Source of the DNA: a virus
Direction: 5' to 3' (one strand)
DNA: 64,000 bases
IMG/VR virus record: IMGVR_UViG_3300008259_005066
Span: 145,519-209,518 of that record
Part shown: piece after piece, positions 713-63,363 of the stretch
How positions within the stretch are numbered: the first letter of the stretch is position 1
Layout of the letters: each line of letters starts with the position of its first letter
The notes under the pieces: generated by a model
Seen by the model: the letters and a program-made list of their open reading frames with translations, nothing else
Database searches by the model: none
Told to the model about the DNA's origin: nothing
Program-made: the position numbers and the translations under genes

Positions 713-720
713 TATTTATT
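713..720 (-). promoter_or_regulatory. Late promoter AATAAATA, 7 nt from ATG
   Basis: AATAAATA on the minus strand ends 7 nt before the ATG at 705 and overlaps the TAA stop of the terminase gene. It matches the T4 late consensus TATAAATA except at the first base. There is no room for a Shine-Dalgarno site in the expected transcript. Confidence 0.55.
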
Positions 721-2309: not shown

Positions 2310-2317
2310 GATAAATA
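2310..2317 (+). promoter_or_regulatory. Late promoter GATAAATA, 5 nt from ATG
   Basis: GATAAATA lies 5 nt before the ATG of the HNH gene. By T4 late-promoter geometry, transcription would start at or next to the A of ATG, giving a leaderless message. It is embedded in ACGCCGATAAATAT, which resembles ACGCCGATAAGTAT near 51016. Confidence 0.55.
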
Positions 2318-4934: not shown

Positions 4935-4942
4935 TATTTAGC
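4935..4942 (-). promoter_or_regulatory. Late promoter GCTAAATA, 7 nt from ATG
   Basis: GCTAAATA on the minus strand with a GTATATT spacer of 7 nt to the ATG at 4927. The same spacing occurs before the genes starting at 705, 21164 and 48611. No Shine-Dalgarno site fits between. Confidence 0.6.
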
Positions 4943-8964: not shown

Positions 8965-9570
8965 TTATCTGGCAGAGCTGTGGACAGCCGGTATCTTGTT
9001 TTGTTTCGTCCCCACGGGGCTGACGTCTCCCATGGGGAAATCATTGGAAGTCACAGCAGGCGGTGTCTTGCCACCAGCCACAGTGAAATCGCTCTTGTAT
9101 GCGTTCTTGACCACTACCTGATGTTCTTTGGGAGCGGCTGAGTAATCTTTCTTGAGATCTCGTTGCTGTTTGTCAGGCGCAGGAAAATCTGTATCGGTCA
9201 AGACGTTTTTGTTTTCTACATCTTGCTTGGCACGCTCTTCATCCATGCTGTCTGCATATTTCTTGTCTTGCATTAGAATGTTGTTGGGATTGAGTTTCAG
9301 CAATTCAGCTATCTGGGTGATTTGGGGAGGTGTTGCAGGATAGTTGAAAGTAACATCAAAGAAAGTCATTGATTCATTGTTGCACTGTGGGAAATCTTTG
9401 AGCTGTTTCTGCACAGGTGTTTTTTTCACGTCGCTCATTGACACTACATCAAACTGCTTGAGCTTGTCTTTGAATGCGGGCATAAAGCCCTCAGGCATGT
9501 CTCCTGCTATCTTGATGCGATAATCATACGTGTGTTTTGATTCTGTTAGGTATTCTGCAAAAGTTTTCAT
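8965..9570 (-). CDS. Conserved protein with CTS-like leader MKTFAEYLTE
   Basis: 201 residues. The first ten residues, MKTFAEYLTE, match the T4 internal-protein leader, with LTE before S as predicted cut. Next comes YDYRIKIAGDMPEGF and a domain with KKTPVQKQLKDFP and FDVTFNYPATPPQITQIAELL, a pattern I recall from conserved T4-like cyanophage proteins near the neck genes; it looks like a small ferredoxin-like alpha/beta fold. The C-terminus is Lys/Pro-rich. AGGGGAT upstream is a good ribosome binding site, and a GCTAAATA late promoter lies 17 nt before the start. First gene of the leader-bearing cluster. Confidence 0.72.
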   Translation of the reverse strand: MKTFAEYLTESKHTYDYRIKIAGDMPEGFMPAFKDKLKQFDVVSMSDVKKTPVQKQLKDFPQCNNESMTFFDVTFNYPATPPQITQIAELLKLNPNNILMQDKKYADSMDEERAKQDVENKNVLTDTDFPAPDKQQRDLKKDYSAAPKEHQVVVKNAYKSDFTVAGGKTPPAVTSNDFPMGDVSPVGTKQNKIPAVHSSAR

Positions 9571-9595: not shown

Positions 9596-10078
9596 CTATT
9601 CTGGCTTCTTTGGTTGTTCGCGGCGCACAAGGCGTTCCAGCATTTCGTTGCGATCCAGCACATGCCCTGTGCCTGTGACGGGTATGTCTCCGTCGTTGGA
9701 CTCGCGATCCAGTTTGGCTTTCTGCATCTGTAACTGTATCATCTTGAGTTTTTTGTTCATCTTGGCTGTTTTGGCCGTGATAGCGTGACCCAGCATGGTG
9801 CTGGCCACGGAAAATATCTCTGATGCATAGCGGCTGTCTACCTGCATGCCCAGATCCATGAGATCGTCAAAACTTTCTCGTGCCTTGCCGGCCAATTCGT
9901 CCATTTCTTCGTCTGATGCTTCCAGGCCTCGCACAGCGGGCAATGCTTGCTCGATCTTGTCAAGAGTGGCCAGAGTTTCGGGCAATACAGGCAGGGCAGG
10001 TTCAGAGGGAGTTTGATCGTCTATGGATTCATCCTCTTTGCGAGGCAGATCAAACAGTTCTTCTAATTTTCTCGTCAT
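9596..10078 (-). CDS. 16: Terminase small subunit (gp16-like)
   Basis: 160 residues. The N-terminal third is acidic and probably flexible (RKEDESIDDQTPSEP). The central helical pair (SFDDLMDLGMQVDSRYASEI and SVASTMLGHAITAKTAKMNK) is the oligomerising core typical of T4-type gp16, which regulates gp17 and helps pick the packaging site. The Lys-rich helix KMIQLQMQKAKLD follows. In T4 gene 17 follows directly; here the accessory cluster and structural genes lie between. The start is fixed by a late promoter 4 nt upstream. Confidence 0.82.
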   Translation of the reverse strand: MTRKLEELFDLPRKEDESIDDQTPSEPALPVLPETLATLDKIEQALPAVRGLEASDEEMDELAGKARESFDDLMDLGMQVDSRYASEIFSVASTMLGHAITAKTAKMNKKLKMIQLQMQKAKLDRESNDGDIPVTGTGHVLDRNEMLERLVRREQPKKPE

Positions 10079-10082
10079 GCGG

Positions 10083-10090
10083 TATTTACC
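10083..10090 (-). promoter_or_regulatory. Late promoter GGTAAATA inside a small inverted repeat, 4 nt from ATG
   Basis: The minus strand reads GCGGTAAATACCGC then ATG of gp16. The promoter octamer lies within a 6-bp inverted repeat (GCGGTA/TACCGC). Only 4 nt separate it from ATG, so a leader is essentially absent. Confidence 0.55.
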
Positions 10091-10527: not shown

Positions 10528-10883
10528 GGTAACACATTGCGGGCCGCATAGAAGTTAGGTTGCACCACGGCATTCACACCCAACAGCGTGGCGTTGCTTC
10601 TTTGGTTGTTGAGATAGTAACACAAGGTAGATGTCAATTGTAACTGGTCTTGTCCTTGTATTTCTTGGAGCAATTCCAGCACAGGACGTCTACTGTAATC
10701 TGCTACCTGGAACAGACTCACTGTAAAATTTTTGGCTGCGGTCTTGTCTTTGAAAATCCTAGCAAAATAACTGTAGACCGCATCGTATTGATCCACAGGA
10801 ACTTCTACGGCAAATTCGTAAAAATTATCAAACACCCTGACAGTCATGTCAAGTCTTGGATCGGTATAGTTTACTGTGCTCAT
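10524..10883 (-). CDS. Conserved T4-like phage protein of unknown function
   Basis: 119 residues, starting MSTVNYTDPRLDMTVRVFDN. Contains a helical middle (QYDAVYSYFARIFKDKTAA) and YYLNNQRSNATLLGVNAVV, segments I recall in the small gene that sits next to gp4 in aquatic T4-like phages. The ATG overlaps the end of the gp54-like gene by 4 nt. It is likely a minor tail or baseplate component judged by neighbours, but nothing in the sequence shows this. Confidence 0.7.
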   Translation of the reverse strand: MSTVNYTDPRLDMTVRVFDNFYEFAVEVPVDQYDAVYSYFARIFKDKTAAKNFTVSLFQVADYSRRPVLELLQEIQGQDQLQLTSTLCYYLNNQRSNATLLGVNAVVQPNFYAARNVLP

Positions 10884-12799: not shown

Positions 12800-12807
12800 T
12801 ATTTATC
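12800..12807 (-). promoter_or_regulatory. Late promoter GATAAATA of the tail tube gene
   Basis: GATAAATA followed by a 27-nt leader with AGGAG before the ATG at 12772. This is the conventional arrangement, in contrast to the leaderless sites elsewhere. Confidence 0.65.
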
Positions 12808-12865: not shown

Positions 12866-15724
12866 TTAGACGGTGCTTGCGGTAGCAACATCGCCTGCGG
12901 CAATCTCACCTGTGTTCTTGATACGAACCGGTATGTAGATGAATTCAACTGCTTTCACAGGCTCGATTGCGATGTCAACATAGAGTTCGTTGCGATCGAT
13001 ACGAGCCGGTGTGTTGTTTGATTCATCACACACAACCAGGTAGTCGTAAACACCACGCTTGGCCACAAGATCGTTCAACAAGTTAGAGATAGCATTGGAT
13101 ATCTCATCACGAGTGATCTGATCATTGGGTTCAAACACAAAGCTCTTGCCAATGGTTTCAAGGCGTCCACGCAAGAATGCAATCAAACGTGCCACATTGA
13201 TACGATCCAGTGCCGACGGTGTTGCAGCTTCGGTCTTGTTACCGTAGTTGGTTATGCCCGTGCCAGGTATGAACGTGATCGGGTTGATCTTGTTTTCATA
13301 CAAGGTATCACGTATGCTTTGACGGATCGCTGTTGAGATAAACTGTCCGGTCTGGGCATTGACATATCCCAACGAAAACGCATTGTCAACCACACCGCGG
13401 CGTGTGCCGGCAGGTGCCAACCATGGGAACGAAACTTCGTCGCTACGCAGGATAGTGCGCAACATCATATGGCTGGGCGGTTGCACCACTGTGCCACCAG
13501 TCAAATCTGTGGTTTGGCATGATGGATAGAACGTGCCAAGATACGCATCAGCTGTGACCAGTCCATCTTCTCCGTCTAAACCAGCACCACCAGCATTGGT
13601 CGCCCATGCAGTGATAGCGTCGGCTGTGTCAGGCAAGCGCATTGGTGTGTCACCAACTACAAACGCTGTGTTGTTGCGCTCATTGTTGAGTGCTATCATA
13701 TTCACTATCAATTCTGGATAGTTGGGTGTGGCGATCAAATTGAACTGGCGTTGTTCTTCGCGCAGATCTTGATTGCCATCTATCGATGATTTCATGGCCT
13801 GCACCACCATGTTCCGCACTGCTTTGCGACCCATGTAAGGTGATCCATCGTTTTTCAATCCGCTGGCAGTGACCCATGCATCAGTGACTGTGCCTGTGAA
13901 ATCAGGATAGTCAGTGGCATTGAAGTAATCTACCTGGAAGCTCTTGACGTTGAATCCTGAACGACGCAGGTTGAATGCCAACATGCCTGCAGGATACAAT
14001 GTATACTCAGGTGCATCTGGATCCAGATACGAGCTGGCCAGCAAACTGGTTATGGTTGGAATTGGAGCAGTGATAGGATCTGTGTCACCGTTGGTAGCCC
14101 AACGGAAGTCAGCGAACAGCACACCATTTTCGGTGGTCTGGTCGGTGTTGTCGATCAATACCCATTGATCTGCACCGTCTACTGATTGCCAACGCTTGAT
14201 CACTGGATACAGTTCAAGATCGCTGGTGTCGATCCAGAGATCACCATAGACCAGTGGAGTATCGTCACTTTGCACAGTGGGTGCTGTGACAGAAATGATT
14301 GGTCCAGCGGGATCTGTCTGTGTCAAATTGTAACCGCGCACATCATTGCTGAGTGTGCGATATCCAACCCAGGCATTGCCACTATTGATCATGATGTCAA
14401 CTTGATCTGTGGCAGAATAATACCACAAGCGTCCATCAGCAGGATCTTGGCTAGGTGCCACGTCGCTGGCAGTGTATGTGAATGTGGGTGCACCTACCCA
14501 GTTAGATAGGATCAACTGATTGCTCACACCTGCTCGCACTCCAGTGACTGATGTATTGATACCTGCATCTGCCACGGGTGTGCCGGATGTGTCTTCAAGC
14601 ACGATGCTACCACCTTGGGTGTGCTGTATCTGGATGGCGCCATCTGATGTCACGCCTGCTGTGACTGGAGCACCGGATGGTATAGCGGCCAAAAATGCTG
14701 TGACAAAATCTGCCGCTGTGGTTCCGCCCAGCGTGGCTGTGACCGCGGTGGTCAGTGTATCACTGTTTTTCACGCTCCAGGAGATAGTGAACTGTTCGCC
14801 GTTGACAAATGTTGGTGATGTGTCGTCACCAATGATGATTGTGTTACCGCTGGCCAGACGCTCAAGGATCTTGATAGTGAATGTGAAGTCTTCGTCCACA
14901 TCATATTGAGCATAGGTCGAACCTGCTGTGATGTTGCGACCACCACCAGCCGGATCTAGAGCCTTGTTTGCGCTCTGATCGTTGGCATAAAGTGGACAAC
15001 TCTGTTGCACAAACAGTCCCAATGTGGAATCATATTTCTTCACTGCGAGATCCGCACCTTGGTTTACTGTATTGGTCTTGTTCCATACCGAACCAGTTGG
15101 ATGTGGCTCTGTGTCAGTGGTCCTCCAGCGTGGAACTGTGTAGTTTGGACTCTGTTGTAGCACAGGTGCATAGTAGATGCGTGGTGTGATTCCTAGATCG
15201 GTCAACAGAGTTCCTGTGCCGTTGGCTATGTCAAGGATACCGTTGCCATCATCAGTGGATCCATCATTGGATCCGTTGGAATCGATGTAGATTTCCAACT
15301 TGCCACTGACATTCTTGGCACTGATGCCAGGAACGTTGGCTGCATTGATTGCCGAGGCCATGGCAGTGACCGTGGTTCCAGCGATAGTAACCAACTGATC
15401 ATTGAGGTAAATGCTTTGTGCATTGGTCAATGTGGGATTGGTTTGGGTTCCTATCACTGAGGGCCATGAGTTTTTCCAATCATCTGACCCCACTAACACC
15501 CAGGTATTGGCAGCAACCACTGGATCACTGACAGTGTTACCTGGAGATTTGAAATAGGTATAGTTGTTGGCATTCACGGCTACCACAGCATAGTCACCGA
15601 TGTTACCGATGCTGTCCAAAGGAGCAGTGGTAGTGTCCAATGGATCTATCAAGTCATCTGCTGATGTGATCACTATGGGTGTCTTGTTGGTAAATGTGTT
15701 GCAGTGGCCGATGTATCTAACCAA
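12866..15724 (-). CDS. 18: Tail sheath protein gp18, main C-terminal part (frame-disrupted)
   Basis: About 950 codons carrying most of the contractile sheath. It contains PIVITSADDL, GDYAVVAVNANN and SDDWKNSWPSV near the start. The conserved C-terminal sheath domain follows: RKAVRNMVVQAM, RGVVDNAFSLGYVNAQTG, FIPGTGITNYG, FLRGRLETIGKSFVFEPND and the closing VEFIYIPVRIKN. There is no proper start: the first in-frame codon usable is a TTG at 15724, and a TGA lies just upstream. The N-terminal part is encoded in the next frame upstream (15673-16128). Together they would give roughly 1,085 residues, long for gp18 because of inserted beta domains at about 350-480. Confidence 0.85.
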   Translation of the reverse strand: MVRYIGHCNTFTNKTPIVITSADDLIDPLDTTTAPLDSIGNIGDYAVVAVNANNYTYFKSPGNTVSDPVVAANTWVLVGSDDWKNSWPSVIGTQTNPTLTNAQSIYLNDQLVTIAGTTVTAMASAINAANVPGISAKNVSGKLEIYIDSNGSNDGSTDDGNGILDIANGTGTLLTDLGITPRIYYAPVLQQSPNYTVPRWRTTDTEPHPTGSVWNKTNTVNQGADLAVKKYDSTLGLFVQQSCPLYANDQSANKALDPAGGGRNITAGSTYAQYDVDEDFTFTIKILERLASGNTIIIGDDTSPTFVNGEQFTISWSVKNSDTLTTAVTATLGGTTAADFVTAFLAAIPSGAPVTAGVTSDGAIQIQHTQGGSIVLEDTSGTPVADAGINTSVTGVRAGVSNQLILSNWVGAPTFTYTASDVAPSQDPADGRLWYYSATDQVDIMINSGNAWVGYRTLSNDVRGYNLTQTDPAGPIISVTAPTVQSDDTPLVYGDLWIDTSDLELYPVIKRWQSVDGADQWVLIDNTDQTTENGVLFADFRWATNGDTDPITAPIPTITSLLASSYLDPDAPEYTLYPAGMLAFNLRRSGFNVKSFQVDYFNATDYPDFTGTVTDAWVTASGLKNDGSPYMGRKAVRNMVVQAMKSSIDGNQDLREEQRQFNLIATPNYPELIVNMIALNNERNNTAFVVGDTPMRLPDTADAITAWATNAGGAGLDGEDGLVTADAYLGTFYPSCQTTDLTGGTVVQPPSHMMLRTILRSDEVSFPWLAPAGTRRGVVDNAFSLGYVNAQTGQFISTAIRQSIRDTLYENKINPITFIPGTGITNYGNKTEAATPSALDRINVARLIAFLRGRLETIGKSFVFEPNDQITRDEISNAISNLLNDLVAKRGVYDYLVVCDESNNTPARIDRNELYVDIAIEPVKAVEFIYIPVRIKNTGEIAAGDVATASTV

Positions 15725-16128
15725 TAGTCACCGTTGTTGGGTGCACCTGTGGGGCGTGTCAAACTGGCTGTGAGTTCGCTCAAGTCAATGTTGGCACGCT
15801 GGACGTATGCACGATTGGAAATGCCTAGAACAGAATAGGCTGCGAGCAGACCGTATTCGTTAAGTTCATAACCATTGATTGGTGTGCCTGCTGTGGTTTT
15901 GTAGAAGAATGGGTTACCAAATGTGTTGACCAAATCTCTTTGGCTAGAGATTAAATAAACTCGATTTGCGTTGACCTCTGTGGTGCCGGCAGCCACGCCA
16001 ACACCGCTACCACTGATCTTGTTTTGCGCTGTGGCTATCAAGATAAATGGTACTGAATTTGTAGGAGCTGGTAGATAGTTGGATTCATCTATGATCGTAA
16101 CTTCTACGCCTGGGCTAAGTAGTGCCAT
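15673..16128 (-). CDS. 18: Tail sheath protein gp18, N-terminal part (frame-disrupted)
   Basis: 151 codons beginning MALLSPGVEVTIIDESNYLP, the classic N-terminus of aquatic T4-like sheath proteins. They continue through NEYGLLAAYSVLGISNRAYV and RPTGAPNNGDYWLDTSAT, then leave homology with ATHLPTRHP and stop. The next frame resumes sheath-like sequence (FTNKTPIVITS) at the same place, so one gene has been split by an indel in the interval 15673-15715. The start has AAAGGAA and a late promoter upstream. It may be an assembly or strain defect; a working phage would need the intact protein. Confidence 0.85.
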   Translation of the reverse strand: MALLSPGVEVTIIDESNYLPAPTNSVPFILIATAQNKISGSGVGVAAGTTEVNANRVYLISSQRDLVNTFGNPFFYKTTAGTPINGYELNEYGLLAAYSVLGISNRAYVQRANIDLSELTASLTRPTGAPNNGDYWLDTSATATHLPTRHP

Positions 16129-16212: not shown

Positions 16213-16220
16213 CTTAAATA
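16213..16220 (+). promoter_or_regulatory. Late-type promoter CTTAAATA, 5 nt from ATG
   Basis: CTTAAATA with spacer TCTGC directly before the ATG at 16226, pointing opposite to the sheath promoter about 50 bp away. Expected transcript is leaderless. Confidence 0.45.
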
Positions 16221-16225
16221 TCTGC

Positions 16226-16573
16226 ATGTCAAGACCCCTGTGCAAAGCCTGCAACAAACGACCATCTGCCGTGAATTGCTATCGTGGCGATAAGATCTAC
16301 TATCGCAGTCGTTGCGACAACTGCATCAGGAAAGATCGTCGGCAAAAACCAACAGAACCCAGATGGAAACAGGCAGGATACAAGAAAAAAATGATCTGTG
16401 ACCGCTGTGGATTCCGCGCCAAAGTCCAGTCTCAGACTCTAGTATATCATGTAGATGGTAATCTCAACAACTCTGAACTGCGTAATCTCCGTAGCGTGTG
16501 CCTTAATTGCACAGCCGAGATCATGAGAGAGGACTTGCCTTGGCGACGCGGAGATCTCGAAGAAGATCGGTGA
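16226..16573 (+). CDS. Small zinc-binding HNH-like protein
   Basis: 115 residues with two zinc-ribbon-like pairs, CKACNKRPSAVNC and CDNC, then CDRCGF and CLNC flanking YHVDGNLNNSELRNLRSVC. The HVDGNxxN...N pattern is that of the HNH/ββα-metal nuclease core. The family is common in T4-like cyanophages as an unassigned protein. A plus-strand gene between minus-strand operons with its own promoter suggests a free-standing nuclease or regulator. The 3' end overlaps the end of the convergent kinase gene by about 50 bp. Confidence 0.75.
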   Translation: MSRPLCKACNKRPSAVNCYRGDKIYYRSRCDNCIRKDRRQKPTEPRWKQAGYKKKMICDRCGFRAKVQSQTLVYHVDGNLNNSELRNLRSVCLNCTAEIMREDLPWRRGDLEEDR

Positions 16574-21148: not shown

Positions 21149-21156
21149 CATAAATA
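21149..21156 (+). promoter_or_regulatory. Late promoter CATAAATA, 7 nt from ATG of gp14
   Basis: CATAAATA, spacer CAGCACT, then ATG at 21164. Same 7-nt geometry as at 705, 4927 and 48611, leaving no ribosome binding site. Confidence 0.6.
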
Positions 21157-21163
21157 CAGCACT

Positions 21164-22492
21164 ATGCCCAGATTAAGCCTTTATCGCCCCAACAGGCAAA
21201 ACGATTACAAGTTTTTGGACCAAACCATAGCCGAAATGTATCAGGTTGGCGGCTTGGACATCTTTGTCCACAAGTATCTGGGCCCGCAACCACATGGCGA
21301 CGATAGCAGTAGCCAAACTGGTGGCACACAAGATGCCACACAACCAGCCTACAGCTATACCAATCCCTTGTTCGTGGAAGATCTGTTGCTGATAGAAAAT
21401 CGCGACAGAAAATACGATCAAGACATCTATATCATGCGCGGTGTTTACAATCAGCAGGATATCGACTTTGATCTCAGCCAGTTTGGCCTGTTCTTGAACA
21501 ATGACACCCTGTTCATCACTTTCCATTATAACGTGATGATCGATACCATGGGTCGCAAACTGATGTCGGGTGACGTGCTAGAATTTCCCAATCTCCGCGA
21601 TTACAACCCACTGAACACAGCACTACCAAAAGCCCTGCCTCGCTACTATGTGATCCAGGATGCGGCATTTGCTTCAGAAGGTTTCAGCCAAACCTGGTTG
21701 CCGCACCTGTGGCGAGTGAAAGCCACGCCCTTGGTTGGTGCGCAAGAATACAACGACATACTGAACAAACCTTTTGCTCAAGACAATATCTGGGATCCGG
21801 GCAACTACTATCCGTCAGGAAGCATAGTGCTCTACGGCGACACCTATTACCGTGCCATACAGAACACTCCGACCAGCACTGAAATAACCAACACTACCTA
21901 CTGGCAAGTCTACACTCCCGAAACCATCCAGGAGTCGATCGGCACACGCAAGAAAGATTACGAACTCAACGACGCCATACTCACACAGGCCGAATACGAA
22001 GTTCCGTTGTCAGGCTACGACACAGTTAAGTTTTACATCGTGCCCACCAACCCAGATGGCACGCCTGCTGATCCTGCTTCCATCCCCACTGCCGATTACA
22101 CAGTGGTCACTGTGGATACCACGCTGACCAATGTCAGCGATGGCAATGTGAGTCCTACTGGTGACGGCTACACATCAGGTTATTTGACCGGTGATGGTAT
22201 CGCACCCAATGGCCTGCCTGTGACACCGGGTATAGCGTTCCCATTGAATCCCAGCCAAGGCGATTATGCCTTGCGCCTGGACTACTTTCCCAATCGCTTG
22301 TTCCGATTCAACGGTGCTCGTTGGGTCAAGATCGAAGACAATGTGCGCACCAATCTCACTCCGGGTCCAGACAACAAGACCATGCGGTCGGGCTTCGTCA
22401 ACAACACCAACACAACACAGACTGCCGATCGTGGACCCATACCACAGCGTCAAGGACTGTCCAATATTCTCAAACCCGAGGCGGATAACTGA
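21164..22492 (+). CDS. 14: Neck protein gp14-like
   Basis: 442 residues from the ATG at 21164; the frame extends further upstream but MPRLSLYRP is the familiar N-terminus and follows the promoter. Key stretches: FLDQTIAEMYQVGGLDIFVH, YLGPQ, LLLIENRDRKYDQDIYIMRG and DFDLSQFGLFLNNDTLFIT, all as in gp14 of T4-like cyanophages. An inserted domain (about 215-260, NYYPSGSIVLYGDTYYRAIQ) resembles a carbohydrate-binding-like module. gp14 joins gp13 at the head-tail junction. The gene is plus-strand, while gp13 is on the minus strand about 2.7 kb away. Its stop overlaps the next ATG. Confidence 0.85.
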   Translation: MPRLSLYRPNRQNDYKFLDQTIAEMYQVGGLDIFVHKYLGPQPHGDDSSSQTGGTQDATQPAYSYTNPLFVEDLLLIENRDRKYDQDIYIMRGVYNQQDIDFDLSQFGLFLNNDTLFITFHYNVMIDTMGRKLMSGDVLEFPNLRDYNPLNTALPKALPRYYVIQDAAFASEGFSQTWLPHLWRVKATPLVGAQEYNDILNKPFAQDNIWDPGNYYPSGSIVLYGDTYYRAIQNTPTSTEITNTTYWQVYTPETIQESIGTRKKDYELNDAILTQAEYEVPLSGYDTVKFYIVPTNPDGTPADPASIPTADYTVVTVDTTLTNVSDGNVSPTGDGYTSGYLTGDGIAPNGLPVTPGIAFPLNPSQGDYALRLDYFPNRLFRFNGARWVKIEDNVRTNLTPGPDNKTMRSGFVNNTNTTQTADRGPIPQRQGLSNILKPEADN

Positions 22493-41367: not shown

Positions 41368-42433
41368 ATCTTTCGCCATTAAGCAGGGCTACCACCGGTG
41401 CCAGGATCTGTTGTTCCACATTGCCTGAATGGAACCAATGGAAATTGTGTTCAATATGGAAACGATTGGCATGCCACCAATCTCGTGTGTCTGCGTGATG
41501 CTGATTGACCACTTCGGCCACGAGATGCAACCTACTGCTGAAATTCTGTTTGAGATCATAGTCATCACAGAAAGTATGGAATCCCAGTCGTTTCAACCAT
41601 GCAGTGGTTCCAGGCGCACCCACCACAAGGAATAGTTGTCCGGCAGCGATGGGTTTCCAGATCTTTTCGCTAGTAAAACTGATCAAGGCCGATGTCTCTG
41701 TGACCACATTGCACCATGCATCTTGATAGGCTGGATGCGCCAAAGAATGGTCGTTTTGTCCTAAGGTTTCGCCTTGCCATGCCATGGGAAAATCTCGTAT
41801 GTTTGTGATGCATCGTTGTGCCAGTTCATCGCCTATGAGATTGGCCAATCCACGATATTGGTATGCAGTGATTGGATGCCCCTGATAGGGACAGCGATCA
41901 TAGAAACTGTAGATAAACTTGTCCAGCAGTCCAAGATCTTTGACCATGGTATAGAACACCAAACGATGGAACGTGGGATTGCGATTGAGACAGGAGAACG
42001 CATGTGTTCTATCATGACTGGGGAACTCGCGACACAGCGATTGTTTTTTAAAAACAAACAACCAACTGGGATATGTAATCTCTCGGAGATGTTGATGCTG
42101 TGTGAGATCAAACTGGCTCAAACCAAAAAAACAAGGTATACGGAATTCACCAGCGATGTTATCCAGTATGATAGACTTGTCTCGATAGTCTGTGACAGGA
42201 TCTTGCGTGCCGTCAAATATGATCTGTTCAAATCTGATGTTATCGGCGCTGGCCCGATCAACCACGGTCTTTACGTAATGTTCTATGTCTTGACCTTTGA
42301 CTAAATTGCAGTCAATGACCAGGGTTGGACGATGGACCTGTTTCAACAACGGTTCATAGTGCTGGTGAGGATTGTTTTCAACAAAATCAAACTGATCAGT
42401 GTTGAAGTTGTAGCGCCAATGCAGATCTTGCAT
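41363..42433 (-). CDS. Glycosyltransferase-like protein (fucosyltransferase/exostosin type)
   Basis: 356 residues. The C-terminal half holds the donor-binding pattern of GT10-like or related GT-B enzymes: AWCNVVTETSALISFTSEKI followed by WKPIAAGQLFLVVGAPGTTA and LKRLGFHTF. SCLNRNPTFHRLVFYTMVKD upstream is the NRxxxxHR region common to such phage proteins. It would transfer a sugar to a protein, DNA or cell-surface acceptor; the acceptor is unknown. It lies inside the late structural region between gp23 and the MGRPL protein. A CATAAGTA sequence 5 nt before the ATG is a possible, imperfect late promoter. Confidence 0.7.
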   Translation of the reverse strand: MQDLHWRYNFNTDQFDFVENNPHQHYEPLLKQVHRPTLVIDCNLVKGQDIEHYVKTVVDRASADNIRFEQIIFDGTQDPVTDYRDKSIILDNIAGEFRIPCFFGLSQFDLTQHQHLREITYPSWLFVFKKQSLCREFPSHDRTHAFSCLNRNPTFHRLVFYTMVKDLGLLDKFIYSFYDRCPYQGHPITAYQYRGLANLIGDELAQRCITNIRDFPMAWQGETLGQNDHSLAHPAYQDAWCNVVTETSALISFTSEKIWKPIAAGQLFLVVGAPGTTAWLKRLGFHTFCDDYDLKQNFSSRLHLVAEVVNQHHADTRDWWHANRFHIEHNFHWFHSGNVEQQILAPVVALLNGERS

Positions 42434-42438
42434 CGCAA

Positions 42439-42446
42439 TACTTATG
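42439..42446 (-). promoter_or_regulatory. Possible late promoter CATAAGTA, 5 nt from ATG
   Basis: CATAAGTA differs from the consensus by G for A near the end. The spacer TTGCG puts the ATG at 42433 at the expected transcription start. It overlaps the end of the 45-codon gene. Confidence 0.35.
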
Positions 42447-42579
42447 GTGTTTTTACTATCAGACTATGATTGGCTGGTGGGGGCAAAGGTTTGATCACAA
42501 CATAACCAATAGCAACACCTATGGGTGCTTGTGGTCGGATGGCCGGTGTGCCCAACCCAATGTTTACTTTGCCAATCAT
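42442..42579 (-). CDS. 45-residue protein with its own consensus late promoter
   Basis: From the ATG at 42579: MIGKVNIGLGTPAIRPQAPI, then a hydrophobic GVAIGYVVIK stretch and PLPPPANHSLIVKTP. A longer in-frame extension exists upstream but crosses a terminator. The perfect TATAAATA 5 nt upstream supports the short form. Pro-rich and slightly basic; no family recognised. It lies directly downstream of the major capsid gene, so a small capsid-associated (for example decoration) protein is possible. It may also be a fortuitous frame, but the isolated promoter and terminator argue for a real gene. Confidence 0.6.
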   Translation of the reverse strand: MIGKVNIGLGTPAIRPQAPIGVAIGYVVIKPLPPPANHSLIVKTP

Positions 42580-42584
42580 GACAA

Positions 42585-42592
42585 TATTTATA
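42585..42592 (-). promoter_or_regulatory. Consensus late promoter TATAAATA, 5 nt from ATG
   Basis: The only exact T4 consensus octamer among the late sites I found. Spacer TTGTC, then ATG at 42579; expected transcript starts on the start codon. Confidence 0.7.
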
Positions 42593-42601
42593 GCCAACAA
42601 A

Positions 42602-42621
42602 AAACCCGCCGAAGCGGGTTT
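42602..42621 (-). terminator. Intrinsic terminator after gp23
   Basis: 8-bp stem AAACCCGC/GCGGGTTT with a TTCG tetraloop on the minus strand and a T run after it. It ends the head operon just after the gp23 stop. Confidence 0.9.
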
Positions 42622-42646
42622 TTGTTTTTTCCTTTTCCGTAACGGA

Positions 42647-43843
42647 TTAGGAGAATGACAAGTTGGAAACAGCAATCTCACCAACATAGTCGCCGGCGTT
42701 ACCGAACGAAGATGCTGTGTTTGTGAGTTCGATATAGCCGTAACGTGTCATGAATGATACGACTGGTTCGAATGTGCTTGGATCCAGCACGACACCGCTT
42801 GACATCAATGGGATGTATGGGCAGTAGAACGCGGCTGCATCTGTTTCGCTTGCGCCTTTGTAACCAACCAACACAGGTGTTGTATCTGCGGCATAAGAGT
42901 CGCAGAACACACGCATAGCGCCGTTCAATGTACCAACAAACTTGGTGTTTGTGGGTGCTTCGAATGTGCCTTCTGTGGTGCGGGCAAAAGCTGATGTTGT
43001 TGCAGACTGAAGAACAGTCAATGAAGCAGGCGATACAACAGCCCAGTTACCAGCGCCACGGCGTGTGCGCTGAGCGATCAAGTTAGCAACACGGTTGATC
43101 AAAACTGCCAATGCGGCATGTTCGTCACCAACGAATGTGGCTGTGCCTGATACAGTAGCCTGGTTGTATGTAAACTCTGTTGATGCAAGAGTGCGGAGTG
43201 ACAGGAGGATCTCCTGATCAATTTCAGCGGTAATTTCTTGCGCTAGAGCTGCCATGATTTCTGCTTCGATGTCAATGCCATGCATGGCTTGTGCATCTTG
43301 TGCAGCTTCAAATGTCCAACGTGCTTGCAATTTGCGTGTTTTAGCTTCAACAGCCTGCTTCAGGATTTGCACAGAAATTTGCTTACCACCGTTGCCTTCG
43401 AGGGTAGCAGTAGCGGCACCAGTATAAGTGGTGGCTGTACCTTCGTTTTGTGGCACTGTGGAGTAAGCCTGAGCGATCTTGAATGGGCTGAGTGCTTCTT
43501 CACCTGCTGTAACGGATGTCTGAGCAGCTGAATTGTCAGTCAATGACTGAGCATAACGCACACGCAGAGTGTGGATCTGGCCTACAGGACCTGTCATTGG
43601 CTGAACACCAACCAACTCGTTAGCGATAACAGTTGGCATGACACGTCGGATAACTGGCAGAATCACACGGTTTAATGTAGCGATGTTACCAGATACTGTG
43701 GAACCAGCACTTGCGTTCTCTTTCAAATACTTGCGGGTGTTTTCGAGGATCACACCCATTGTGTTGCGGCGAGCACCATTCAAACCTTCCATGAGGGCTT
43801 CTTTGGTCTCGTCCCAACGGCTTTCTAATAGTTCTTGTGACAT
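42647..43843 (-). CDS. 23: Major capsid protein gp23
   Basis: 398 residues. The N-terminal propeptide (MSQELLESRWDETKEALMEG, helical to about residue 47) ends near KYLKENASAGST, where gp21-type cleavage is expected. The HK97-fold body follows: ILPVIRRVMPTVIANELVGV, QPMTGPVGQIHTLRVRYAQS, AEIDQEILLSLRTLAS, RRGAGNWAVVSPASLTVLQS and PYIPLMSSGVVLDPSTFEPV. It is shorter than T4 gp23 and typical of aquatic T4-like phages. AAGGAG precedes the start. No late motif lies directly upstream, so it is read from the gp20-22 transcripts, with a strong terminator after it. Confidence 0.97.
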   Translation of the reverse strand: MSQELLESRWDETKEALMEGLNGARRNTMGVILENTRKYLKENASAGSTVSGNIATLNRVILPVIRRVMPTVIANELVGVQPMTGPVGQIHTLRVRYAQSLTDNSAAQTSVTAGEEALSPFKIAQAYSTVPQNEGTATTYTGAATATLEGNGGKQISVQILKQAVEAKTRKLQARWTFEAAQDAQAMHGIDIEAEIMAALAQEITAEIDQEILLSLRTLASTEFTYNQATVSGTATFVGDEHAALAVLINRVANLIAQRTRRGAGNWAVVSPASLTVLQSATTSAFARTTEGTFEAPTNTKFVGTLNGAMRVFCDSYAADTTPVLVGYKGASETDAAAFYCPYIPLMSSGVVLDPSTFEPVVSFMTRYGYIELTNTASSFGNAGDYVGEIAVSNLSFS

Positions 43844-43869: not shown

Positions 43870-44970
43870 TTAAAGCCCTGCTAGGCGTTTGAGGTCGATC
43901 ACATTGCTCTTAGAAGCAGTGTCTTCTTCCGCTACAACCTTTGCAGATTTATCACCAGTTACTTCACTAACACTCTCTGCGATCACTTTACGGGCTTTCG
44001 CAGGACGATTGTCAGCTAACACAGCTGGTAGATATTTTTCGAAAGCGCCCTTGAGACGGGTCGTTTGGACGTTTTCGAGCAGATTCTTCATGACTTCTCG
44101 CTTCTCTTCATTGAGAGGAGCAAGCAATTCTTCCATGGCGTTTGCACGTTCATTGGATTCCTTGATCACGCGAATCTCGCGTTCCTTGTTTTCAACGAGA
44201 ACTTTTGCTTTCTCGGTGAGTTGGATGGCTTCGGCCAATTTCTGATCTTTTGAAGCGATTGTATCACGCAGTTTGCGGATTTCAGCGTTCTCATTGAGAT
44301 GAGTGGCACCAAATTCTGCGGCGTATGCTTCAAAAATACGACGACCAAAATTGTTCTCGCGAGCAACTTTGATGTCTTCATGTAACTGGCTAAGTTCAGC
44401 CTTCAAATGCTTGGCAACACTCTGGCTCATCTTGGTAGCACTTTCTTTCACGAAACGTGATTTCAATGCTTCCAATTGCTTACGTGCTTCGCGGACTAGA
44501 CGAACTTTGGTTTCCACCGCGTCCTTCTTGTCTTGTGCGAATTCTGTAATCTCTTGGGCAAGAGCTTTCACAACAAAACTTTCCAATTTCTGGATTGATT
44601 CATTGTGTGTTTTGCGATCTTTGCGCAGTTCGCCAATTTCTTCGGCAAGTTTAGAAACCATGAAGTCGTTAAACTTCGTTGCTGATTCCTTCATCTTGAC
44701 TTGGAACTTGACACGATCTTCGGCCAATGACTGCTTTTCAGCTGCCACTGCTTGGATCTCTGCGGCAAGACCATCTGTTACCATGCGATCTAGGGCTTCC
44801 ACCATCACTTGTTTGTCATGCTCATAGCGTTGTGCAAACTCTTCTCTGAGTTCTGCACGCACCTCTTCACGAGCCTCGTTCAGCTTTGATTCCCATTGTT
44901 CCGAGATGGCTGTGCGAGTTTCCTCGTTGATTAGGTCGCTATCTAGTAACGGTTTGATGGCATCTAGCAT
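43870..44970 (-). CDS. 22: Prohead core scaffold protein gp22
   Basis: 366 residues, almost wholly coiled coil: long Glu/Lys/Ala helices such as EQWESKLNEAREEVRAELRE, KSLAEDRVKFQVKMK-type stretches and IRKLRDTIASKDQKLAEAIQ. FEKYLPAVLADNRPAKAR and a Ser/Lys tail ending SNVIDLKRLAGL close it. gp22 forms the transient core around which gp23 assembles, and gp21 later digests it. Its place between gp21 and gp23 matches T4. AGGAGAAA lies before the start. Confidence 0.88.
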   Translation of the reverse strand: MLDAIKPLLDSDLINEETRTAISEQWESKLNEAREEVRAELREEFAQRYEHDKQVMVEALDRMVTDGLAAEIQAVAAEKQSLAEDRVKFQVKMKESATKFNDFMVSKLAEEIGELRKDRKTHNESIQKLESFVVKALAQEITEFAQDKKDAVETKVRLVREARKQLEALKSRFVKESATKMSQSVAKHLKAELSQLHEDIKVARENNFGRRIFEAYAAEFGATHLNENAEIRKLRDTIASKDQKLAEAIQLTEKAKVLVENKEREIRVIKESNERANAMEELLAPLNEEKREVMKNLLENVQTTRLKGAFEKYLPAVLADNRPAKARKVIAESVSEVTGDKSAKVVAEEDTASKSNVIDLKRLAGL

Positions 44971-44979
44971 GCGTTTCTC

Positions 44980-45603
44980 CTAAATCTTGAGATCTTTGAT
45001 CAAACGAGAAATCTCGCTCTTCAAGTATCTCTGTACCTTGTCGTCTCCGCCAGCATCTTTGGCCATCTCTAGCACTCGATGACCATATTTCATGTTCATG
45101 AGTCCTTCGTAGACAGCTGTGGGATATGCGTTGGGCGCACTGGGTTGGGCGACAACATCGACAGTGACAATTTCAAAATCACTGACATGTCCATTGGCCT
45201 CGTTAACGTTTCCGCTACCGCGGCTTGAAACTCCTAATTTCACACCTGACTCAAGCATGGTGCGCACCAAATTGCCCATTGGCGTTGGGAGAATTTTTAA
45301 CTTACCAAATCCGTTGGGGCCATCCATCCACATTTCTGTCATGATATGACTGCAACGATCTAGGTTAATTTTAAGGTCATCGGGGTGATCAACTTCGCCC
45401 AACACAGAATATCCACCCTGTATTTGCTCATTGATTTGCTTTACTGCTTTTTCAATTTCGTTTACAGGATACACACGCTCGTTGGCATTTTTCACACCAC
45501 CCTGGATGCAGATACCTTTCATGTAAAGGTCCTTACCTTCGACGCCTTCAAGCACTATGCGTGCGGCATCAAAAGTAAGGTGTTCTCTGAGGTATCGAGC
45601 CAT
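44980..45603 (-). CDS. 21: Prohead maturation protease gp21
   Basis: 207 residues. GKDLYMKGICIQGGVKNANE followed by RVYP, GGYSVLGEVDHPDDLKINLD with the catalytic His, and ESGVKLGVSSRGSGNVNEAN with the catalytic Ser are the T4-type prohead protease signature. It cuts scaffold, gp23 propeptide and internal proteins after (L/I)xE, which matters for the leader-bearing cluster at 5-9.6 kb. The C-terminal helix KVQRYLKSEISRLIKDLKI may be the self-cleaved part. It lies between the gp68-like and gp22 genes as in T4. Confidence 0.93.
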   Translation of the reverse strand: MARYLREHLTFDAARIVLEGVEGKDLYMKGICIQGGVKNANERVYPVNEIEKAVKQINEQIQGGYSVLGEVDHPDDLKINLDRCSHIMTEMWMDGPNGFGKLKILPTPMGNLVRTMLESGVKLGVSSRGSGNVNEANGHVSDFEIVTVDVVAQPSAPNAYPTAVYEGLMNMKYGHRVLEMAKDAGGDDKVQRYLKSEISRLIKDLKI

Positions 45604-46599: not shown

Positions 46600-46818
46600 C
46601 TACAGGGCCGGAGCGGCCGGAGGCTGATATTGCTTGCGGATATCTCGGAGTTTTTCTTTGTATTCGTATGACCGCACATCGTTCATGCGACGCAGTTTGT
46701 TGATCTGCTTGAGCGTGAGTTTGGTCTTGCGCAGTTTGCCCAACTGAGGTTGGCTGTTGTCATCAGCAAGATCTTGGTAACCAGCAGGATCTTTGTGGAA
46801 AAATTCAAAGAGGTTCAT
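46600..46818 (-). CDS. 67: Small prohead core protein, gp67-like
   Basis: 72 residues: MNLFEFFHKDPAGYQDLADD then LRKTKLTLKQINKLRRMNDV and a basic helix with KEKLRDIRKQYQPPAAPAL. The position directly after the portal gene and before the gp68-like gene is that of T4 gene 67, whose product is a small, highly charged core protein. The assignment rests on synteny and the Lys/Arg-rich helix. The start lies 5 nt after an AATAAATA late promoter that overlaps the portal stop codon. Confidence 0.65.
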   Translation of the reverse strand: MNLFEFFHKDPAGYQDLADDNSQPQLGKLRKTKLTLKQINKLRRMNDVRSYEYKEKLRDIRKQYQPPAAPAL

Positions 46819-46823
46819 GGCAG

Positions 46824-46831
46824 TATTTATT
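46824..46831 (-). promoter_or_regulatory. Late promoter AATAAATA, 5 nt from ATG of gp67-like
   Basis: The minus strand reads ATCTAATAAATACTGCCATG: portal stop TAA, promoter octamer and start codon within 20 nt. Leaderless geometry. Confidence 0.6.
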
Positions 46832-48611
46832 AGATAGTGGGCACAGGAGCGGCACCACCGGCAGGTCCTGCGCCAGCTGCGGCAGCGCCAGGAGCACCGG
46901 CCATGCCTGGAGCCATGGGTGCCACAGCACCTTCGGGTGCACCTGCGGCACCTGCGATCTCTTCACCAGCTGTGATGTCTGCTTCGATATCAGCAGGGCT
47001 GATGCCTACTGAACGCAGATCTTGACCACCTTGCGTGCTCAGTTCGGGTTGATCTCGCTCTTCTTTCCATAGTTTTTCGTTGTCTGCAATCTCTTCTTCA
47101 GACAGTCCAAGATAGCGTTTCATCAGGAATCTCTTGCTCAAATAGGGCAACTGTTCTAGCCCGCTGAACGCTGTCATCCGTGTGGTGTCCAGTTCAGCCT
47201 GGCGATAACTGGCAAAATTCTGTGGCGGTGCAAACTTGATATTGAACAGGCCAGAGTCAATGTTGAAACCTCTCCAGCGCAGGAACATCTTGAACTCGTC
47301 ATCCAGTTTCTGCACGATCTGACGTTGCATACGCTCGCAGTATTGATTGAAACGATATTCCTGTATCAGCGCAGTGCCCACACGCCCGTCATTCATAGGG
47401 CGATCAGAATCATCTGGCCCAGTGGGTAGATATGATGACGGCACACGCAGACCGCGGCACATCTTGTTGTTGAAATATTTTAAGTCGTCGATCTCGCCTA
47501 GATTCTGTCCGCCTTGCAGGGTAGTAACATCCGAGCCACGACCTTCGGCTGTGACCGGAAAGAAGTAGTCTTCGTTGATTGACAGCGGATTGTATGTGGT
47601 ATCCATGATATTTTCACGACCACCTGTATTAGACGGAATACGTCGCTGATGGATTTCATTTTTCACACGTTCCACGAACTGCATGGCCAAATGGCTGGGC
47701 ATGTTGCCCACATCAATTTTGAATATCCTGCGTTCTGGCGCACGAGATATGCGATAGATCAGGATAGCATCTTCCAGCAATTCTTTTTGCTTGAATACCT
47801 TGAATATCATCTCCAGCACTGACTGTCCAAATGGCCAATAGTAGTCCAAACCTTCGCTCAGGCTGAGATGCACCACGTGCTTGGCATCGATGCAGGTTTC
47901 GTTCACAGAACGCTGGAATCGACTCTGTCCTGACGAGTTAGGAGCATTGGGTGCTGTGTAGTTGTAGGGTGCTGAATACCCACCCGATGGTGGCTGTGTG
48001 TTGTAGTCATTGATGGTCTTGGCCGCCACTGACATGGATTGGAAATTGGGATTGATGTCTCGGATCACATACTGTTCAGGACGCTTGCCTTCGCTTTCGT
48101 TCACGATCACACGGGCCACTTTGGTCATATCCACCCAGTAGAGTTCAAAGGTTTCAGGATCACGCACAAACACTTGATCGCCATACTTCAGAGTATTGCG
48201 GAACATCTTGAACATGCGATTGTCAAACTTGTTGAGTTTGGTCCATTGCTGGAGCTGTTTCTTGATGATGTCTACTTCGTGCTCAGTGGGTGTTTCTGTG
48301 AAACCTATTTCAAAAGGTGTGTCGTTGGCCTCACAGGTCTGTGTGGAAAATTCGGCTAGGATGTCAAGGCAGGCATTGATTTCCGAATCGCCATCCATGT
48401 TCTCGTATTGATTGTAGCGTTCCATCCTGTTGGGATGGCCAGTGTAGACCTCTGGCAGTCTGCTGGCATAGTTGCGGAAGGCAAATTCCGCATGGGCTTT
48501 GTCGTCTACACCGTAGCCTGTGCCATAACTGGGACCGCGTGGAACCTGCCCCGAAATTGGGCTGAACTGTCCTGAAACATCAGCGACTTTAAAATATTTT
48601 TTCCATGACAT
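46830..48611 (-). CDS. 20: Portal protein gp20
   Basis: 593 residues from the ATG at 48611 (MSWKKYFKVADVSGQFSPIS); a longer frame upstream crosses the promoter and the tape-measure stop. Portal signatures: NQYENMDGDSEINACLDILA, YFNNKMCRGLRVPSSYLPTG and LKYGDQVFVRDPETFELYWV. The C-terminal 90 residues are Gly/Ala/Pro-rich (PGMAGAPGAAAAGAGPAG). The portal forms the dodecameric vertex ring, starts prohead assembly and docks the terminase. It heads the T4-ordered block 20-67-68-21-22-23. Confidence 0.95.
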   Translation of the reverse strand: MSWKKYFKVADVSGQFSPISGQVPRGPSYGTGYGVDDKAHAEFAFRNYASRLPEVYTGHPNRMERYNQYENMDGDSEINACLDILAEFSTQTCEANDTPFEIGFTETPTEHEVDIIKKQLQQWTKLNKFDNRMFKMFRNTLKYGDQVFVRDPETFELYWVDMTKVARVIVNESEGKRPEQYVIRDINPNFQSMSVAAKTINDYNTQPPSGGYSAPYNYTAPNAPNSSGQSRFQRSVNETCIDAKHVVHLSLSEGLDYYWPFGQSVLEMIFKVFKQKELLEDAILIYRISRAPERRIFKIDVGNMPSHLAMQFVERVKNEIHQRRIPSNTGGRENIMDTTYNPLSINEDYFFPVTAEGRGSDVTTLQGGQNLGEIDDLKYFNNKMCRGLRVPSSYLPTGPDDSDRPMNDGRVGTALIQEYRFNQYCERMQRQIVQKLDDEFKMFLRWRGFNIDSGLFNIKFAPPQNFASYRQAELDTTRMTAFSGLEQLPYLSKRFLMKRYLGLSEEEIADNEKLWKEERDQPELSTQGGQDLRSVGISPADIEADITAGEEIAGAAGAPEGAVAPMAPGMAGAPGAAAAGAGPAGGAAPVPTI

Positions 48612-48618
48612 AGTGTTA

Positions 48619-48626
48619 TATTTACC
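48619..48626 (-). promoter_or_regulatory. Late promoter GGTAAATA, 7 nt from ATG of gp20
   Basis: GGTAAATA, spacer TAACACT, ATG at 48611. It lies just after the tape measure stop at 48631. Confidence 0.6.
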
Positions 48627-60653: not shown

Positions 60654-61541
60654 CTATTCTTCTGAAGGAGATGCGACCGCTTCGGCTGCTTTGTTATGGC
60701 TTTCCGAATACTGTCTAGTCCACGAAGGATTGAGTCCGTTCATTTCCAAGATATCATCGCGTATGTTCTGCATCTTCTTTTCTATGTTCAACACACGAGT
60801 GAAGCTATTAGTGATAGCGGCAGTATAATACGCAAAAGGGTTCTGCGATTTTGATTCATCGAACTGCAATCCGATCTGGCTGAGCTGTAGCAGGGCCTGA
60901 CCCCGCATTTCTTCGTTGTAGGTGTATCCACGCCAATTGCTCCTTGTAGCGTATCTTTCGCACAGTTTGATAAACATGTGCGCCAATTTTGGGGTCATTT
61001 TGCCATGTTCCCTGCAGAACTCGCCCCCGTCTAGACTACCCCGCCAGTGTGATTTACCCACCACAAACGGCTGTTTTTCTTCGTCCAAACGATAGTGCCA
61101 AAACGGCGGAAAATTCAATCTGACATGTGCAGTATCCAGCACAGGCACATCTACGATGTCCTCGAGCCCGTCGCTTTCCTGGGTGTCATCCAGTTCCAGC
61201 AGTTCCTCCATCTTGGCTTTTTTGGCCTGGGCTTTGGTTTGCTTTTTGGGTGCCATGGGTATGTGTTCCCAGGTAGTGATACGGAACACAAGATCGGTGT
61301 GCGGAATCTTCTTTTCGTTGACTGCTTCGCCGGTTTCTTTTTTGATCCTATCGGCCCTGTTGCGCCGGGCTTCGGCTATGGTTCGCTGATTGATCTTGGA
61401 CAGCGAAGGCAAGATGATGTCATACTGATGATCCATTTGTGGGTTCACATAGGTGCAGTATGAATTCTTGCTGTGGTGTATTTCTTTCAATATATCTTTG
61501 TTGTTGAGATAATTGGTCTTGGCTGGAGTCTTGATAGACAT
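60654..61541 (-). CDS. 55: Late-transcription sigma factor gp55
   Basis: 295 residues from the ATG at 61541, preceded by TAGGAGAA; an upstream in-frame start would add 13 residues. The C-terminal half has LCERYATRSNWRGYTYNEEM and SKSQNPFAYYTAAITNSFTR followed by VLNIEKKMQNIRDD, the sigma-70 region 2-like core of T4 gp55 that reads the TATAAATA late promoter. The N-terminal half, with a Lys-rich stretch (KKQTKAQAKKAK) and an acidic block, is an extension compared with T4 gp55 (185 residues). Its presence fits the many TAAATA sites in this window. It lacks a late promoter itself. Confidence 0.85.
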   Translation of the reverse strand: MSIKTPAKTNYLNNKDILKEIHHSKNSYCTYVNPQMDHQYDIILPSLSKINQRTIAEARRNRADRIKKETGEAVNEKKIPHTDLVFRITTWEHIPMAPKKQTKAQAKKAKMEELLELDDTQESDGLEDIVDVPVLDTAHVRLNFPPFWHYRLDEEKQPFVVGKSHWRGSLDGGEFCREHGKMTPKLAHMFIKLCERYATRSNWRGYTYNEEMRGQALLQLSQIGLQFDESKSQNPFAYYTAAITNSFTRVLNIEKKMQNIRDDILEMNGLNPSWTRQYSESHNKAAEAVASPSEE

Positions 61542-61632
61542 CGTTGATGATTCTCCTATATTGTAGTTATTATACAACATTTGGCATCTTTGTCAAATCA
61601 TTTCAATCATTATGTTAGCCGTTTTGACATCC

Positions 61633-61640
61633 GGTAAATA
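61633..61640 (+). promoter_or_regulatory. Late promoter GGTAAATA of the plus-strand baseplate operon
   Basis: GGTAAATA with a 16-nt leader containing AAGGAA before the ATG at 61657. It is divergent from gp55. Confidence 0.6.
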
Positions 61641-61656
61641 CATCAAGGAATCCACG

Positions 61657-63363
61657 ATGTCTACACAGGCCCAAACAAATCAAGCGGATCTCGCACTACA
61701 GCGAGCAAACCAAGAAAGGCTAGATGCGCTAGGTGCGCTGAATCGAGCACAGCGTATCCTGGCACGAGCACAAGAAGCAGGATCAGACGTTGATCCCGGT
61801 CTGCTGGCACAAGCACAAGACGGAGTCACCCAGGCCGCGGCGCGACTGGAACAGGCCGTCAATGCCTCGCAAGCGGCCCTACAGAACTATACCACGGTGT
61901 TCAACCAGCCCGACACCGATGCCGCACAGAACCCACAGGTCAACAACAACCCACCTGCGCTACCACCACCTCCGCCGCTGACCTCCGCGGCACCACCACA
62001 AGGCAATCCCCCCGATCCCACCGTTGAACCAGCAGTTACCAGTCCAGTGACAATATCCAACATCACTGCTTCTCCTCTGCCCGTGGATCAAGGTCCGCAG
62101 AGAGATCCCAACGCTGAGCCATTGGCCACAATCTCCAGACCTGGACAATTTGTTTTTGATGCCAATGGCGAACTGTTACCAGCCGACAGCGTGGTAGCAC
62201 AACAGATCGAGTTTGAACGACGCGAAGCCGATGCGGAATTCAACAGAGTGATCAATGTCCAGCCAGGTCCGTTGGGCGGCAGATTTACCGCGGTATATGA
62301 TCCCGAAACTGGCAAGTTCAACGTAGAAAATCTTGACACTGGTGAAACAGTGCAATCAGGACTCACTGACGCCCAAGCCACTAGATTGGCCGGCGAATTG
62401 TCCGAAGGCGATCCTGCATATTTTTCCCAGCGAGATGAAGATGATCCAAACGATAGCGATCTTGTTCGAGTAGCTACCGATGATGATGTGGCCCTGGCCT
62501 CGCAAGCGCAAGCACTGTTGTCACAGGCCCGCCAGCAAGCCGAAGTGTCGGAAATACGCAAGGCCAATGGCAAAGCAGTGGGCGATGGCGACTGGCGTGT
62601 GCGCTTGCGCCTGGCACCTTACGCTACCTATCTCTACAAGAATCCCGAAGGCGCAGGTATCATGGAACCCCTGCGCAACACCGATGGCGTGGTATTTCCT
62701 TATACACCGCGCATCGACATGAGTTATAACGCAGATTACAATCCCACAGATTTGGTGCATTCCAACTATCGTGGCTATTTCTACAAAGGCAGCCGGGTAG
62801 GCGAAGTGACGATCACGGCAGATTTCACAGCACAGGATTCGGCCGAGGCCGATTACCTATTGGCCACCATACACTTTTTCAGATCATGCACCAAGATGTT
62901 CTACGGTCAAGACGACGATCGCGGAGCCCCACCGCCCTTGGTATTCCTCACAGGGTTGGGCGAATTCCAATTCAATGAACATCCCTGCGTGATCAGCCAG
63001 TTCAACTACAACTTGCCCAATGATGTGGACTACATCCGGTCTCGAGGACGCCAGTCAACATCGGCCGGTGTCACACAAGGCGGCAATGGTCTGCTGTGGC
63101 GCAGACAACAGACTGGCGGACCAACCAACAGTTACAGCCTATCAAACATCTGGTCCAGATTGACTGGAGCCAACTTGCCCAAGGGAGCTATAAATTATCC
63201 CCCGGCGCCGCCCAATCTTGGATTGAATTCTCCCACCTATGTGCCCACCAAGATGCAGGCCATACTGACACTGTTGCCCATGCCCACACGCAGTCAAGTC
63301 ACGCAACAGTTCAGCCTTGATCGTTATGCCAATGGTAACTTGCTCAAAGGAGGATTCTGGTAA
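61657..63363 (+). CDS. 48: Baseplate protein, probably the gp48-like tail tube cap
   Basis: 568 residues from the ATG at 61657, chosen because a promoter and AAGGAA stand before it; an upstream in-frame ATG at 61612 precedes the promoter. Residues 1-100 are an Ala/Gln-rich coiled coil, then a Pro-rich linker (PPALPPPPPL). The conserved C-terminal domain has WRVRLRLAPYATYLYKNPEG, FPYTPRIDMSYNADYNPTDL, HSNYRGYFYKGSRVGEVTIT and TIHFFRSCTKMFYGQDDDRG. I recall this domain in the tube-cap/structural protein of aquatic T4-like phages. A role where tube meets baseplate fits the neighbours; gp48 as the exact equivalent is tentative. Confidence 0.6.
   Translation: MSTQAQTNQADLALQRANQERLDALGALNRAQRILARAQEAGSDVDPGLLAQAQDGVTQAAARLEQAVNASQAALQNYTTVFNQPDTDAAQNPQVNNNPPALPPPPPLTSAAPPQGNPPDPTVEPAVTSPVTISNITASPLPVDQGPQRDPNAEPLATISRPGQFVFDANGELLPADSVVAQQIEFERREADAEFNRVINVQPGPLGGRFTAVYDPETGKFNVENLDTGETVQSGLTDAQATRLAGELSEGDPAYFSQRDEDDPNDSDLVRVATDDDVALASQAQALLSQARQQAEVSEIRKANGKAVGDGDWRVRLRLAPYATYLYKNPEGAGIMEPLRNTDGVVFPYTPRIDMSYNADYNPTDLVHSNYRGYFYKGSRVGEVTITADFTAQDSAEADYLLATIHFFRSCTKMFYGQDDDRGAPPPLVFLTGLGEFQFNEHPCVISQFNYNLPNDVDYIRSRGRQSTSAGVTQGGNGLLWRRQQTGGPTNSYSLSNIWSRLTGANLPKGAINYPPAPPNLGLNSPTYVPTKMQAILTLLPMPTRSQVTQQFSLDRYANGNLLKGGFW

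Follow-up and report, generated by a model that had tools for sequence, protein, structure and literature searches.

Late promoters placed on start codons suggest leaderless or nearly leaderless late mRNAs in a lineage of uncultivated T4-like phages

Late transcription in phage T4 is a textbook system, and its messages carry leaders. Our searches of the open-licence literature turned up no description of leaderless late mRNAs for phages of the T4 type. In T4, the first base of the late promoter octamer is numbered -13 in a review of the system (PMC2988020), and in the cyanophages P-SSM2, S-PM2 and Syn9 the late promoter motif NATAAATA lies upstream of late genes (PMC2984593). Leaderless genes have been described in Actinobacteria and Deinococcus-Thermus, in which a -10 box lies about 10-12 nt before the start codon (PMC3160421, PMC12340547), and among phages the cI message of lambda is leaderless (PMC9031893, PMC3160421). 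Phage-encoded bS21 has been proposed to confer a translational preference for phage late mRNA in a study that does not mention leaderless messages or promoters (PMC9723584).

Here, we analyzed IMG/VR record IMGVR_UViG_3300008259_005066 (209,518 bases in full), focusing on the 64,000-nt stretch from base 145519 to 209518, hereafter the window, to which coordinates refer unless stated otherwise. The window contains a T4-type head gene order with every gene on the minus strand:

46830..48611, minus strand, portal protein gene (phrog_213, E 1.4e-107), placed in the near-leaderless class
46600..46818, minus strand, 72-aa gene with the portal gene on one side and the prohead genes on the other, the position of T4 gene 67
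between the 72-aa gene and the prohead protease gene, minus strand, 287-aa gene
44980-45603, minus strand, prohead protease gene
43870-44970, minus strand, gene in the scaffold position
42647-43843, minus strand, major capsid protein gene

The major capsid protein shares 81-92% identity with its counterparts in 80 IMG/VR contigs; identity falls to about 58-67% with those of PA5oct, Phosso, Vibrio phage 2.275 and the 350-kb enterobacterial jumbo phages. Elsewhere in the window, the tail sheath gene consists of two overlapping minus-strand ORFs (15673-16128 and 12866-15724) that match the N-terminal part and the remainder, respectively, of one sheath family; in two relatives the sheath is a single ORF of 1084-1126 aa, and the split in our record reflects either a frameshift or an error of assembly around position 15,700.

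We denote by d the distance in nt from a late octamer to the ATG and distinguish a short class (d=4-8) from a long, leadered class (d=16-31). The following sites in the window illustrate both:

42585..42592, minus strand, exact late octamer TATAAATA, d=5 to the ATG at 42579
42442..42579, minus strand, 45-aa ORF after the exact octamer, with no relative detectable among 80 contigs; gene status uncertain
42439..42446, minus strand, variant octamer CATAAGTA, d=5 to the ATG at 42433 of a 356-aa ORF
46824..46831, minus strand, octamer AATAAATA, d=5 to the ATG at 46818 of the 72-aa gene
48619..48626, minus strand, octamer GGTAAATA, d=7 to the ATG at 48611 of the portal gene
10083..10090, minus strand, octamer GGTAAATA, d=4 to the ATG at 10078; d=4 in three of four family members
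4935..4942, minus strand, octamer GCTAAATA, d=7 to the ATG at 4927, virion structural protein
713..720, minus strand, octamer AATAAATA, d=7 to the ATG at 705, virion structural protein
2310..2317, plus strand, octamer GATAAATA, d=5 to the ATG at 2323, HNH endonuclease
16213..16220, plus strand, octamer CTTAAATA, d=5 to the ATG at 16226, 115 aa, weak HNH match
21149..21156, plus strand, octamer CATAAATA, d=7 to the ATG at 21164, virion structural protein
12800..12807, minus strand, octamer GATAAATA of the leadered class, d=27, tail tube gene
61633..61640, plus strand, octamer GGTAAATA of the leadered class, d=16 to the ATG at 61657, structural gene

A preliminary description of the window had listed all of the short spacings above, and we obtained the same values (4 nt at 10078; 5 nt at 2323, 16226, 42579 and 46818; 7 nt at 705, 4927, 21164 and 48611), while its leadered examples measured d=16 to 28. 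The start at 42433, which it had regarded as weaker, has d=5 behind CATAAGTA; this octamer is of the TAAGTA type, which is itself the clearest enriched one-base variant at d=4-8 (14 occurrences versus 2.6 expected). Its choice of 42579 as the best example stands as regards the octamer, which is the exact consensus; no other case is weaker as a gene, because the ORF has 45 aa and lacks a detectable relative, and the gene at 46818 makes the best example. Further sites in the window, absent from that description, include one with d=10 at 10883 and leadered starts at 9570, 29734, 33357, 46485 and 51009. A GC-rich, terminator-like hairpin followed by a T run (42600-42630, minus strand) directly follows the major capsid gene and closely precedes the exact octamer, and the octamers of 16226 and 48611 are also preceded by short inverted repeats.

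The preliminary description had proposed counting octamer-to-ATG distances genome-wide and in relatives against shuffled sequence, and on both scales the short spacings exceed expectation. Across the whole record, TAAATA precedes the ATG of ORFs of at least 60 aa once at d=4, seven times at d=5, once at d=6, eight times at d=7 and twice at d=8, so that d=7 is about as common as d=5; just four cases fall at d=9-15, and a broad class then spans d=16-31. Among ORFs of 100 aa or more, 15 starts have TAAATA at d=4-8 versus 1.3 expected from sequence positions further upstream (Poisson, ~1e-11), and TAAATA is the top hexamer at these distances once Shine-Dalgarno (SD) words are excluded. The summed profile of fourteen permuted A4T2 hexamers is flat. 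Across 14 clade contigs, 118 short-class starts were counted with a simple gene set versus 8.3 expected, with a peak exactly at d=5 (27, 53, 13, 20 and 5 starts at d=4, 5, 6, 7 and 8) and few cases thereafter until 16. Whole-pattern counts of TAAATANNNNNATG that ignored ORFs were uninformative in these AT-rich genomes. The spacing pattern is thus real, lineage-wide and clearly beyond chance.

The short class is present in 14 of the 14 clade contigs examined. Elsewhere it numbers 0 in T4, 1 in PA5oct, 0 in the 400 kb of Phosso, 1 in Vibrio phage 2.275, 3 in P-SSM2 and 5 in 121Q. Our record differs from T4, PA5oct, Phosso and the Vibrio phage with Fisher p values from 0.001 to 4e-6; compared with 121Q, the difference is not significant for our record alone (p=0.10) and weak for the clade (p=0.04). 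Of the seven short-spaced sites listed for 121Q, four read TATAATG across spacer and start, which resembles a sigma-70 -10 box. The short class is best read as a lineage trait of an uncultivated T4-like clade.

Since the octamer contains TAA, adjacent genes packed stop to start, with this TAA as the upstream stop codon, could in principle yield the same arrangement. The octamer before 46818 indeed overlaps the portal stop, and in 21 of 134 clade cases the TAA closes an upstream frame of 60 or more codons, so that a few cases may be stop-codon coincidences. The other 113 octamers end no such frame, the enrichment largely persists when stop-codon overlaps are removed, and other TAANNN words, SD-containing ones aside, are hardly enriched at short spacing, which makes packing a most improbable general explanation.

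The two classes also differ in what lies between octamer and start. In agreement with the earlier claim that short-spaced starts have no SD sequence, an SD core is found at 0 of 19 starts with d=4-8 in our record versus 81% of 31 with d=16-31; for the clade, the values are 1% of 134 versus 54% of 234, and each of five large genomes has 0% SD in the d=4-8 class. The scarce spacings of 9-15 nt would, by T4 geometry, correspond to leaders of about 3-9 nt, in which an SD would not fit. Short-class starts share with leaderless genes both the lack of an SD and a -10-type element situated some 10-12 nt upstream of the start codon. Near-exclusive use of AUG, expected of leaderless genes, does not separate the short and leadered classes, in which 85 of 91 and 159 of 171 starts, respectively, are ATG. 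Second codons in the clade differ between the classes, GCA/GCT being abundant in leadered late genes (68 of 234) and AAA in leaderless ones (17 of 134).

With the first base of the octamer at -13, T4 numbering puts +1 six bases past the end of the octamer; at d=5, +1 is therefore the A of the ATG. The base before the ATG is a pyrimidine (C or T) in 54 of 62 cases with d=5, and in 112 of 134 short-class versus 147 of 234 leadered starts (p=3e-5), which fits a -1Y/+1A start site. In leadered genes, positions 5 to 7 past the octamer, where starts are expected, are A-rich. In the d=7 class, the consensus before the ATG is ACT, and these messages may start at the ATG or 2-3 bases before it, giving a leader of 2-3 nt. 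In many genes of the short class, an in-frame stop lying 9-33 nt upstream fixes the start codon. That an mRNA would begin on the AUG itself is suggested by the position of the octamer in T4 (-13 to -6), by the presence of a gp55-family late sigma factor and by the pyrimidine at -1.

These features bear on a second alternative, namely, that ribosomes initiate on these genes independently of an SD (A/U-rich, S1-mediated) within longer read-through messages and that the octamer is a mere A/T-rich translation context. SD-less starts are common, an SD core being present in about one third of the other ORF calls, a set that includes spurious ORFs, and some of the genes lie directly behind another gene on the same strand. 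However, the signal is TAAATA rather than its permutations or SD-free TAANNN words, the leadered class uses the same hexamer with a similar preference in the preceding dinucleotide (GA/CA/AA/TA), the distances show a trough at 9-15 nt, and the -1 base is a pyrimidine as at transcription start sites. We therefore consider read-through an unlikely explanation.

Spacing class is kept within protein families: 81% of pairs agree versus 51% after permutation, with none of 2000 permutations above 62%, and families found in three or more genomes include eight with short spacing throughout and thirteen with long spacing throughout. Conservation is clearest for the 72-aa gene in the gene 67 position: of 50 contigs with a readable start, 37 have d=5, nine have d=4, 6 or 7 and four have a leader, while upstream of the octamer the sequence varies freely. 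Similarly, the gene starting at 16226 has d=5, 5, 5, 5, 4 and 4 across six genomes, and the structural gene at 61657 is leadered in 11 of 11 genomes of its family. This conservation points to selection. Short-class genes of known type in our record encode the portal, several virion structural proteins, two HNH-type proteins, a metallophosphoesterase and a peptide deformylase; long-class genes include those for tail tube, sheath, fibre-like and head-tail adaptor proteins. The peptide deformylase gene (record positions 13069-13512, minus strand) has a late octamer at d=5; the gene is present in Phosso and not in four large relatives searched, and it was ruled out as a clade marker, as only our record and Phosso carry it among nine.

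Family alignments are also relevant to the possibility that the promoters are active and the true start codons lie further downstream, in which case the messages would be ordinary leadered ones with misjudged starts. Start codons are predicted here, and some ORFs have several candidates. Nevertheless, the proteins in the gene 67 position align from the octamer-proximal ATG in 50 contigs (49-69% identity in the examples listed) with the spacing kept, and the portal and peptide deformylase (record position 13512) starts agree with their families. Misjudged starts are thus very improbable as a general account. Altogether, the preliminary proposal of two late-start classes is strongly supported by spacing, SD content, family conservation and the lack of a short class in T4 and in most of the other T4-type phages tested.

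The expected reader of the octamers is encoded in the window:

60654..61580, minus strand, gp55-type late sigma factor (phrog_12791, E 3.8e-78; phrog_234, E 3.5e-23)

A search of the record for a gp45 sliding clamp with a T4-centred family gave no match, and we found no phage tRNAs, initiator tRNA included, and no phage IF3. Genes for bS21 occur in some clade contigs (G001:173110-173256, G005:120083-120241 and G008:146943-147095); as only some relatives carry it and our record has no match, bS21 was rejected as a common helper.

Our results very probably reflect leaderless or nearly leaderless late mRNAs made from promoters fused to start codons, which is the best explanation of the sequence pattern. 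In this model, the octamers would act as T4-type late promoters read by the gp55-like sigma of the phage, and at somewhat over a third of the octamers in the two main spacing classes transcription would start at the A of the ATG or no more than about 3 nt from it. The resulting messages would be translated by leaderless initiation at a 5'-terminal AUG, probably by 70S ribosomes, while the remaining late genes would be preceded by leaders of about 10-25 nt that in most cases include an SD. The spacing bias, the lack of an SD, the conservation within families, the near-absence from T4 and other distant relatives and the presence of the sigma gene are observed here, whereas the precise 5' ends, the way translation initiates and a possible regulatory use are inferred. 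The translational control layer put forward in the preliminary description is plausible. More tentatively, and with considerable doubt, we speculate that the two layouts form a lineage-wide switch in which the leaderless route stays open when SD-dependent initiation becomes limited during late infection, setting the timing or amount of head-assembly proteins apart from those of tail and fibre; leaderless mRNAs would then include those of the portal, the gene in the gene 67 position, several virion proteins, HNH nucleases and, in our phage, the peptide deformylase. Placing the same promoter on the start codons of core head genes would make late expression partly leaderless in a large uncultivated T4-type group and would provide a natural test of how leaderless and SD messages compete in a bacterium. 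Gene callers that reward SD sequences may misplace short-class starts.

Compared with known systems, our record shares with T4 late promoters (TATAAATA, gp55/gp33/gp45) the octamer, a gp55-family sigma and late structural genes downstream. T4 differs in having 0 ORFs of 100 aa or more whose first ATG follows TAAATA at d=4-8; its four d=5 sites before ORFs of at least 40 aa lie inside genes 46 (antisense), mobB, nrdG and uvsW, and none is at an annotated start. The cyanophage late promoter motif is common to our clade, whereas P-SSM2 has 3 short-class starts versus 30 leadered ones, at least one of the short cases being an annotated tail-fibre-like gene. The bS21 system is shared with those clade contigs that encode the protein and not with our record. 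Bacterial leaderless genes are alike in having a -10-type element abutting the ORF and no SD, but they use -10 boxes of host sigma factors, whereas here the element is a phage late promoter and defines one of two late classes. Finally, lambda cI is a single leaderless gene, while the candidates here form a set of late structural genes.
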